The notes under the pieces were generated by a model. The model did no database searches and was not told the DNA's origin. It saw nothing but the letters and a program-made list of their open reading frames with translations. A stretch of DNA of 44,354 nt from Candidatus Yanofskybacteria bacterium RIFCSPHIGHO2_01_FULL_43_32 (lineage in GTDB: Bacteria; Patescibacteriota; Minisyncoccia; 2-02-FULL-40-12; GWA2-44-9): contig MGJF01000006.1 of assembly GCA_001794125.1 (NCBI GenBank), positions 1-44,354 of the forward strand, read 5' to 3'. A program made the position numbers and the translations under genes. Shown here in pieces: positions 16,708 through 44,354 of this stretch. The first letter of the stretch is position 1, and each line of letters starts with the position of its first letter.

Positions 16708-16735
16708 TCAAAAATCCCCGAACGGGGATTTTTGA
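16708..16735. terminator. Bidirectional terminator between rnhA and rnpB
   Basis: TCAAAAATCCCC-gaac-GGGGATTTTTGA. Confidence 0.8.
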
Positions 16736-16736
16736 T

Positions 16737-17093
16737 ACCTTGCAAACAATAAGCCGAATTCTGTCGAGAATAGTCATTTATCTAGGCCTGCCATTGCTGA
16801 CAGGCTCAAGCGGCCTACTTGTACTCGCCGATGGGGCGAGTTTGGCCTTGCGCTCCAGTAAGGATTTAGCCGTTTCACTCCCAACCTTTAACCCCGGCTG
16901 GGACTAAGCTATAACTCCTGATGAATCAAGAATTTTGGGTTTAGCTTCCTTGTCCTTTCGGACGAAGACGTCTCTGTTCGCACCTCTTGCATCACTGCAG
17001 ACGGGGATTACCCGCTACCGTTTTAAATCACTTTCGTGAAGTAAGTGTTCGGACTTTCCTCCCATTTAAGGGCGACTATTTAGTTTGCAAGGT
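16737..17093 (-). ncRNA. rnpB: RNase P RNA (bacterial type)
   Basis: P1 stem ACCTTGCAAAC/GTTTGCAAGGT at both ends; reverse complement has GAGGAAAGTCC near the 5' end and ATAAGCCGAATTCTG-type 3' conserved segment. Confidence 0.9.
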
Positions 17094-35427: not shown

Positions 35428-35553
35428 TCGATACGGATCTGGCCAAGCCGGTTGAGTTCTAAACCCTACTCGTAAAACCATTGAAAAAATGATTTTTTTG
35501 TTGTAGAGTTTAGGTGTTTTTAAAAACACTTTTTGATTAATTCTTGCCTGAAC

Positions 35554-35624
35554 TGCGGGGTCGTCTAACGGTAGGACATCGCCCTCTGGAGGCGAGTATC
35601 TTGGTTCGAATCCAGGCCCCGCAG
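35554..35624 (+). tRNA. tRNA-Gln (anticodon CUG)
   Basis: TGCGGGG/CCCCGCA acceptor, anticodon loop CTCTGGA, T-arm TGGTTCGAATCCA. Confidence 0.92.
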
Positions 35625-35673
35625 TTCAGTTCGGAATTTATCAATGTGAGAATCCAGGCCCCGCAGTTCAGTT
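35608..35673. repeat. 24-bp direct repeat of the tRNA-Gln 3' end
   Basis: gaatccaggccccgcagttcagtt at 35608-35631 and 35650-35673. Confidence 0.95.
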
Positions 35674-35863
35674 AGAAATTTGAGATTGAGAGAGTTCATT
35701 TTCTTCAGGTATAGCAACATTATTTTCATGTTCTGACCCCCTTTTCATCAGAGCCAGTAGAAGTGAAGTAAAGATACCTTCTACCGTTAAGAACGGTTCG
35801 TAAGTATTAATAAAGAGTTTCTGGTCTTTCAGGGCTGATAAAACATAAACAGTTTAAACAAGC

Positions 35864-38953: not shown

Positions 38954-39225
38954 AGACCCCACCTCAATAATATCTTTCTGACGCGTTGCGAGATGTTTAA
39001 TCAATCCCGCAAGGCGGGACGAGGAAGCTGTAGCTGTCGCTACTGCGACGAGGATAAACGAAGCGGGGTGATAAAATCTCCGCAACCCGAGGGGATACGG
39101 CCAATCTTGTCCATCACTCTGCGGCGCTCCTCCTCGGAGTAGAATAACTACACCTTCGTCGTCGCTTCTTGTGCTGACCAAGATTGACCAGTATCGCGGC
39201 GAAAGATATTATTGAGGTGGGGTCT
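38954..39225. mobile_element. Composite foldback element C1 (272 bp)
   Basis: Perfect 25-bp TIRs AGACCCCACCTCAATAATATCTTTC (38954-38978) / GAAAGATATTATTGAGGTGGGGTCT (39201-39225) enclosing hairpins E0 (38985-39086) and E1 (39099-39189) with homologous cores on opposite strands. Confidence 0.85.
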
Positions 39226-43373: not shown

Positions 43374-43643
43374 GGTCAGATAATTAACCCATTTTATCAA
43401 TTTAGCGGAGCGGATTTTAGCCAAATCCGAGACGCGAGTCTGCAGATGTAGATGATTCTACTTCAAGGACGAGCAACAAAGGATTTGGTCTAAAATCAGC
43501 CCGCCCGCTGCGGGAAACAAGGAATAGACCGATTCCATTGTCTCTCCTCCTCAATATAGAACAATCTATATCTTCGTCGTCGTTCCTCGGACTCGGTCTA
43601 TTCTTTAGCTTCTAAAATGATAAAATGGATTAAATATCTGACC
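43374..43643. mobile_element. Composite foldback element C2 (270 bp)
   Basis: 32-nt TIRs, 29/32 complementary: GGTCAGATAATTAACCCATTTTATCAATTTAG (43374-43405) and CTAAAATGATAAAATGGATTAAATATCTGACC (43612-43643), enclosing E2 (43413-43497) and E3 (43522-43603). Confidence 0.85.
43387..43478 (+). repeat. 92-bp perfect direct repeat, copy 1
   Basis: acccattttatcaatttagcggagcgg...caaggacgagcaaca, identical to 44263-44354. Confidence 0.97.
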
Positions 43644-43646
43644 AAC

Positions 43647-44171
43647 ATGAATACAAAAACAGTTTTCGCGTTTACGTTAATAGTAATTTGTTTCGGTGTT
43701 GTGGCGTTTGTTTTTTACAGAAAAAGCAACGATGCCGACGATGTGTCAAAGCTTGGTTTAAATCCGGCGGCCAGCGCTACGCCGTTGCCGACCCCGACAC
43801 CGACACCTAAGGGTAATAATATAATAAAAATGGACAATGGATTAGAAATTCAAGACTTGAAAGTGGGCACCGGCCCGGAAGCCAAGGCGGGAGACACCAT
43901 ATCGGTAAATTATACCGGTTTTTTGGAAAACGGCACTGTCTTTGACGCATCTGTCAAACATGGCGGACCGGCGACTTTCCAAATCGGAGTCGGCCAGCTT
44001 ATCAAAGGCTGGGATATCGGTATTCCGGGGATGAAAGTTGGCGGCAAGCGCAAACTCATCGTACCCCCTTCGCTCGGCTATGGTTCTCAAAATGTGGGCA
44101 ACGGATTAATTCCTCCCAACTCAACGTTAACTTTTGAAGTTGAACTCTTGGCGATTCAGACGCCTAAATAG
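43647..44171 (+). CDS. FKBP-type peptidyl-prolyl cis-trans isomerase, membrane-anchored
   Basis: LEIQDLKVGTGPEAKAGDTISVNYTGFLENGTVFDAS...IPGMKVGGKRKLIVPPSLGYGSQ; start moved from 43617 because that ATG lies in the C2 right TIR. Confidence 0.93.
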   Translation: MNTKTVFAFTLIVICFGVVAFVFYRKSNDADDVSKLGLNPAASATPLPTPTPTPKGNNIIKMDNGLEIQDLKVGTGPEAKAGDTISVNYTGFLENGTVFDASVKHGGPATFQIGVGQLIKGWDIGIPGMKVGGKRKLIVPPSLGYGSQNVGNGLIPPNSTLTFEVELLAIQTPK

Positions 44172-44262
44172 TTTTCTTGAACTTGGATTAGCTTATTTTT
44201 AAAAGTTATCTTTTATAATTTTTTGTTATAATTAAACAATGGAAGAATGGGTAAGACAATAT

Positions 44263-44354
44263 ACCCATTTTATCAATTTAGCGGAGCGGATTTTAGCCAA
44301 ATCCGAGACGCGAGTCTGCAGATGTAGATGATTCTACTTCAAGGACGAGCAACA
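44263..44354 (+). repeat. 92-bp perfect direct repeat, copy 2 (cut by window end)
   Basis: Identical to 43387-43478 up to the last base of the window. Confidence 0.97.

Follow-up and report, generated by a model that had tools for sequence, protein, structure and literature searches.

Head-to-head G.A-zipper arms in a dispersed, gene-less and probably mobile DNA element of CPR bacteria

A 272-base stretch of the genome of Candidatus Yanofskybacteria bacterium RIFCSPHIGHO2_01_FULL_43_32, at positions 38954-39225 of the 44,354-nucleotide stretch of DNA analysed here (the window), is probably one copy, termed C1, of a non-autonomous, gene-less mobile DNA element in which two head-to-head G.A-zipper arms are enclosed by an outer stem. 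The best reading of the element is a REPIN/MITE-like palindrome moved in trans by an enzyme.

Anatomy and folding of copy C1

The outer stem of C1 is built from a left arm on the plus strand (AGACCCCACCTCAATAATATCTTTC, 38954-38978) and a right arm on the minus strand (GAAAGATATTATTGAGGTGGGGTCT, 39201-39225), which are complementary over 25 bp without a mismatch, as an earlier note on this DNA had described, and rank top among the inverted repeats of the 44-kb window. On the left, the stem extends imperfectly through TGACGCGTTGCG up to position 38990 (plus strand). Inside lie two hairpin units that are matched by R1, a covariance model of the arm: arm A (38992-39087, plus strand, 56.9 bits) and arm B (39093-39191, minus strand, 70.6 bits). 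Each comprises a stem and a G.A-zipper hairpin, the G.A-type sequence being on the plus strand in arm A, whose core reads GACGAGGAAGCTGTAGCTGTCGCTACTGCGACGAGGA, and on the minus strand in arm B. A short linker hairpin between them (CCCGAGGGG, 39085-39094) is assigned by its placement and pairing in the folds of homologues, where it is of the CCCTTCGGG type. Because C1 aligns along its entire length to its own reverse complement with 68% identity, the inner hairpins are homologous and inverted, in agreement with the earlier description and with the R1 matches on opposite strands.

Folded as RNA, a 282-nt C1 segment reached -131.5 kcal/mol, compared with -82.5 +/- 4.8 for shuffled sequences (z -10.2), and its minus strand gave z -9.7, so that the folding check proposed in the earlier note returned z values of about -10 on either strand. 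With DNA parameters z was -8.6, and none of the shuffles matched the folding energy of C1. The three-way junction that had been predicted is the fold of many homologues, in which the outer stem is followed by arm A, the short CCCTTCGGG-type hairpin and arm B, but it is not the minimum-energy fold of the C1 plus strand, where arm A pairs with arm B. No convincing ORF was found within C1, and the earlier statement that it holds no mobilising ORF is correct. Likewise, Rfam searches with C1 and its homologues returned only chance matches at E values up to 10, consistent with the remark that it matched no nameable family.

A conserved arm with one functional strand

Complete two-arm copies measure about 266-308 nt (mostly 266-277 nt); their outer stem, 31-35 bp long, encloses arm A, the short CCCTTCGGG-like hairpin and arm B, in this order. 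A one-arm form of ~165 nt occurs in other genomes. The arm is a conserved unit of ~98 nt that begins with a stem of ~17 bp, variable in sequence, and continues into the core 5'-AGGCGCGACGACGAAGG-N-GTAG-loop-CTAC-N-CCGAGGAGGAGCAACGAAG-3'. From the stem to the apical hairpin runs a zipper in which single Watson-Crick pairs alternate with 5'-GA-3'/5'-GA-3' steps, i.e., tandem G.A mismatches. The apical hairpin carries a conserved GTA/TAC, its GTA(G) being paired with (C)TAC inside the apical stem. The arms, and not the terminal inverted repeat (TIR), are thus the conserved core of the element, and the strand-specific tandem G.A motif had been missed by the earlier note.

Across 150 arms from many genomes, 94.0% of the cells were paired (62.4% when shuffled), the covariation score was 0.812 (0.08-0.11 with slid partners) and two-sided changes occurred at all 16 pairs, counts that are biased upward by the fitting of this alignment to the model. 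In unfitted MAFFT alignments, 12 of 16 and 23 of 30 pairs had changes on both sides. Of the 150 arms, 114 and 127 retain the GA/GA steps, and the flanking pairs swap between C-G and G-C. Since the complementary strand would carry TC/TC in place of these steps, only one strand of each arm is functional. The two-arm copies examined all have a head-to-head layout, with their functional strands on opposite DNA strands and facing each other. A non-exhaustive look at the R1 matches revealed no arm pair that encloses a gene. An autonomous version with a gene between its arms was also considered for the single-arm matches of genomes G216 and G280, and was rejected, as these proved to be either copies with a low-scoring second arm or true one-arm forms.

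Copies in the source genome and beyond

The 762-kb source genome, that of a CPR bacterium, holds six copies, among them the two further ones that had been proposed in the window, both of which are real. The second complete copy, C2 (43374-43643, plus strand), carries R1 matches at 43408-43505 (+) and 43512-43609 (-) within an outer stem formed by GGTCAGATAATTAACCC and GGATTAAATATCTGACC, and lies between a DUF5671 gene and an FKBP gene with a likely start at 43647. E5 (44251-44354, plus strand), also matched by R1, is the left half of a third copy that is cut by the contig end; its right half opens contig C12, directly followed by the start of a GH1 beta-glucosidase gene. The remaining copies lie on contig C2 near 250.4 kb, on contig C3 after a tRNA-Ile gene, and on contig C11 inside the 16S rRNA gene.

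The earlier note had made its proposal depend on homologues existing elsewhere and on their falling outside known Rfam and IS families; homologues were found in many genomes, and none of them matches Rfam. With blastn, relatives of the element were detected in 12 of 59 related genomes, and with R1 in 33 of the 289 genomes of the source organism's class. An exact-pattern scan of 85,462 species additionally retrieved an Omnitrophota bin, a Myxococcales bin and a Deltaproteobacteria bin (10, 11 and 4 arm matches, respectively), the first of which contains three identical copies at three different sites. One CPR bin reached 47 arm matches. Contamination could explain the presence of the element in single bins. 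In the class of the Myxococcales bin (Myxococcota), the occurrence in three of 52 genomes and the GC-rich arms argue against this explanation. One myxococcotal copy (L271, in G354) shows a G.A zipper expanded as a GAGGAGC microsatellite relative to its twin L268. A phage or plasmid origin was rejected, as the viral contigs, plasmids and phages searched yielded no convincing match; two phage matches, at E 0.09 and E 0.3, were weak and were disregarded.

Several other features were recorded along the way. The window encodes a class A RNase P RNA (16735-17091, minus strand, 120.7 bits) and a tRNA-Gln (35553-35625) whose 3' part, comprising the T-arm and acceptor region, is tandemly duplicated at 35597-35680 as two 42-nt copies that are 83% alike, a duplication that resembles the trace left by elements integrating into tRNA genes. 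Additionally, a short palindrome, CCTGCCTGCCGGCAGGCAGG or a close variant of it, occurs at a coding end and inside one element copy (L105 near 1310-1330, at the end of a GH1 gene, and L098), and appears to be a further small palindrome dispersed in CPR genomes.

Insertion sites and evidence for mobility

None of the 22 copies with enough flanking sequence lies inside an ORF, and several adjoin stop codons, start codons or tRNAs. Empty orthologous sites, sought as the earlier note had suggested, were found, and they show no target duplication. Helix 10 of the 16S rRNA is occupied in the source genome and empty in G001, of the same genus; helix 17 is occupied in G013 and G015 and empty in G021, which belongs to the same genus as G013. 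At the FKBP site, G001 has an empty 12-nt spacer between stop and start codons and G000 has 9 + 3 nt around C2, so that insertion took place with neither duplication nor loss. Comparison of G001 with G000 at the L255/L263 site likewise revealed a clean insertion, and target-site duplications were absent from this site, from the FKBP site and from the three Omnitrophota sites. Between pilT and pilC, G001 carries a copy and G000 has only GGTTAAATATCTGACC, nearly equal to one outer-stem arm, which may be either an excision scar or the original half-site. Collectively, these comparisons of sequences indicate that the element is mobile, given the identical copies elsewhere, the empty orthologous sites and the fact that helices 10 and 17 of the 16S rRNA have both received insertions.

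A different account of these copies is that they constitute a structured RNA (a 3'-UTR, terminator or processing signal, or an expansion segment) kept for its RNA function, with old dispersal and incidental mobility. The strong covariation and the strand-specific G.A steps fit such an RNA, as do the proximity of copies to gene ends and tRNAs and the orientation of the three 16S copies, all of which have arm A first in the rRNA sense. However, one arm on each strand has the wrong polarity, the neighbouring genes are variously tandem, convergent and divergent, the orthologous site is empty in most relatives and the spread is sporadic (33/289 and 3/52 genomes), and we regard this account as unlikely. 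For a mobile DNA element, an additional RNA role is possible. The earlier wording, 'MITE-like or a structured RNA', is supported: the empty orthologous sites, together with dispersed copies that are identical, support mobility, and covariation supports conservation of the structure.

Other insertions were observed in 16S rRNA genes. Helix 10 of L113 (G280:C51) holds an insertion of ~310 nt that encodes a GIY-YIG nuclease (PF01541, E 9e-14) and has 19-nt complementary ends, possibly a coding counterpart in the same 16S target. Helix 17 of L114 (G051:C47) holds an unrelated insertion of ~250 nt that contains a small ORF and whose ends are complementary to each other, and helix 17 of L106 (G037) a 49-nt helix extension, CCCTCACTTGG...CCAAGCGAGGG, which is like an outer stem devoid of arms and possibly an excision remnant. 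The insertions of several hundred nucleotides in L121/L129 (G011:C8:6357-7083) and L021 (3' half of the G013 16S rRNA gene) are probably introns with or without ORFs.

Origin of the outer stem

The outer-stem sequence splits into subfamilies, and in G051, in C2 and its twin and in the Omnitrophota copies the stem travels with the element. In G216, the cores are 92-98% identical and the outer stems about 64-91%, the latter still being nearly fully paired. A copy in G001 that follows a GH1 gene has GAGCTAATGCTATGGATATT as its left stem arm; together with the preceding base, this sequence encodes R-A-N-A-M-D-I, which matches the C-terminal consensus of GH1 proteins in relatives, YAKIC[KR]xNxLDI, and the right stem arm is a near-exact inverted copy of the left. 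The right arm of E5 includes ATGTCTTACAT, which is the native start of the GH1 gene and is found at the empty site of G001 as well, and the left arm is its inverted copy, with four compensated differences from the donor-like C2 stem despite nearly identical E5 and C2 cores. At these two sites one arm is native host coding sequence and the other its inverted copy, and therefore the target can supply the outer stem, a claim that rests on two sites, the stem having arrived with the element at two others. Consequently, the outer 'TIR' of the earlier note is perfect in C1 but not always intrinsic to the element. Either snap-back copying from the folded element or a stem-like target corrected by template switching would produce such stems. 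The idea that the outer stem is always a pre-existing host hairpin was discarded, because the empty helix 10 and 17 loops are short and the empty FKBP and L255 sites lack a stem.

The outer stems of subfamilies III and IV are reminiscent of a tRNA T-loop with its acceptor strand (e.g., GTTCGAATCC + 7 nt); tRNA-like ends were dismissed as a general rule, being confined to these two. The resemblance would suit a SINE-like element copied from RNA, whose reverse-transcribed transcript would be primed by foldback, giving the inverted outer stem, and whose T-arm-like ends would recruit the copying enzyme. Host-derived inverted stems also fit such snap-back synthesis. Other subfamilies, C1 among them, are devoid of tRNA-like ends, and a SINE-like origin is very improbable.

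Relation to known repeats and the question of the mover

REPINs and BIMEs, the RAYT-associated head-to-head REP dimers, share with the element the two inverted hairpins, the intergenic and dispersed location, the occurrence as singlets and doublets and the absence of coding capacity. Unlike them, the element has an outer stem of 31-35 bp and arms of ~98 nt with a tandem G.A zipper, whereas REPs are palindromes of 20-40 nt. Moreover, in GTAG REPs one end of the hairpin carries a GTAG tag that is unpaired (PMC3733652), whereas the GTA(G) of the element is paired in the apical stem. Y1/RAYT enzymes with their REPINs are the obvious analogue of the element's mover (PMC3733652, PMC3116915), and the element could accordingly be a REPIN/BIME-type repeat moved by a host Y1 (RAYT/TIRYT) transposase. 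The paired head-to-head hairpins, the GTAG/CTAC and CGTC motifs and the intergenic placement are in line with this proposal, and Y1 shows a modest enrichment, being present in 23 of 31 further carriers compared with 31 of 59 relatives overall. However, Pfam searches, which can miss genes of incomplete bins, detected no Y1_Tnp in the highest-copy CPR bin (G314) or in G258, G037, G003, G011 and G044; ten Y1 loci searched with R1 gave no real match (best E 0.16); and RAYT genes are flanked by REPs, whereas the Y1 genes of the source genome are not flanked by the element. The GTA within a paired stem, rather than in an unpaired foot, and an arm about three times the size of a REP also speak against it. 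The Y1/RAYT analogy is weakened, Y1/RAYT as a necessary mobiliser is not supported given the carriers that lack it and the Y1 loci that lack the element, and movement by a host Y1 transposase is decidedly unlikely.

Bacterial MITEs (e.g., Correia/NEMIS, RUP and ERIC; 70-300 bp with 15-30-bp TIRs) are similar in size, TIR length, lack of an ORF, gene-adjacent insertion and strong foldback to the element, with its ~270 or ~165 bp, stems of 31-35 bp and no ORF. In contrast to MITEs, the element shows no target-site duplication at its resolved sites, no parent IS was found for it, and its conserved part is the internal arms and not the TIR, which can be host-derived. The CGTC-tagged REPs of Neisseria and Rickettsia (dRS3 and RPE-4/6) likewise have CGTC/CCTC-like motifs, head-to-head dimers and no known transposase, but are simple stem-loops of 20-40 nt with neither G.A zipper nor outer stem. 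Insertions described in CPR 16S rRNA genes (introns, ORF-bearing) occupy the same variable helices, whereas the copies reported here are non-coding, dispersed genome-wide and match no intron family. Finally, TIGR arrays are made of dual-spacer repeat units in tandem, next to a Nop-domain gene (PMC12045711), and the element differs from them in that its copies are isolated and dispersed and form no tandem arrays. The element works like a REPIN or a MITE, yet has neither the size and tag that define REPs nor the target duplication expected of MITEs.

Proposed mechanism and implications

Because the G.A zipper of each arm is confined to one strand and the two arms point towards each other, either DNA strand would present a single correctly folded arm. 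Recognition through the G.A hairpins is the best-supported mechanism and is most simply pictured as acting on single-stranded DNA, since this would explain the one competent arm per strand of a two-arm copy. A trans-acting enzyme might bind both ends in the form of single-stranded DNA hairpins while the DNA is replicated or extruded as a cruciform, by analogy with the binding of REPs by TnpA-REP/RAYT-type enzymes. On insertion, a host 3' end would become joined to the element, which, once folded, may prime the snap-back copying of the neighbouring ~10-25 nt of host DNA; one arm of the new outer stem would then be host sequence and the other an inverted copy of that sequence. Thanks to its long stem, the element could lengthen a helix or occupy the space between genes, with neither being broken. 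No autonomous version or linked transposase was found.

The element family is apparently undescribed: no description was found in the open-access papers searched for CPR inverted repeats, MITEs, palindromes and rRNA insertions. The mechanism of insertion stands a fair chance of being new. More tentatively, the element may represent a distinct class of mobile DNA, present in several phyla, with ends that would be recognised in the form of single-stranded, G.A-zippered hairpins and with outer repeats that would be re-made on insertion by snap-back copying of the host flank.

What emerges is apparently a widespread dispersed element of CPR bacteria, the structure of which is strongly conserved across phyla. 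It offers a testable insertion signature, namely, an inverted copy of host sequence in place of a direct duplication. Copies of the element can account for some of the non-coding insertions in CPR 16S rRNA genes, which have consequences for rRNA surveys, and for some assembly breaks, since several contigs, this window included, end inside copies. Furthermore, it points to an enzyme that would recognise tandem G.A hairpins.
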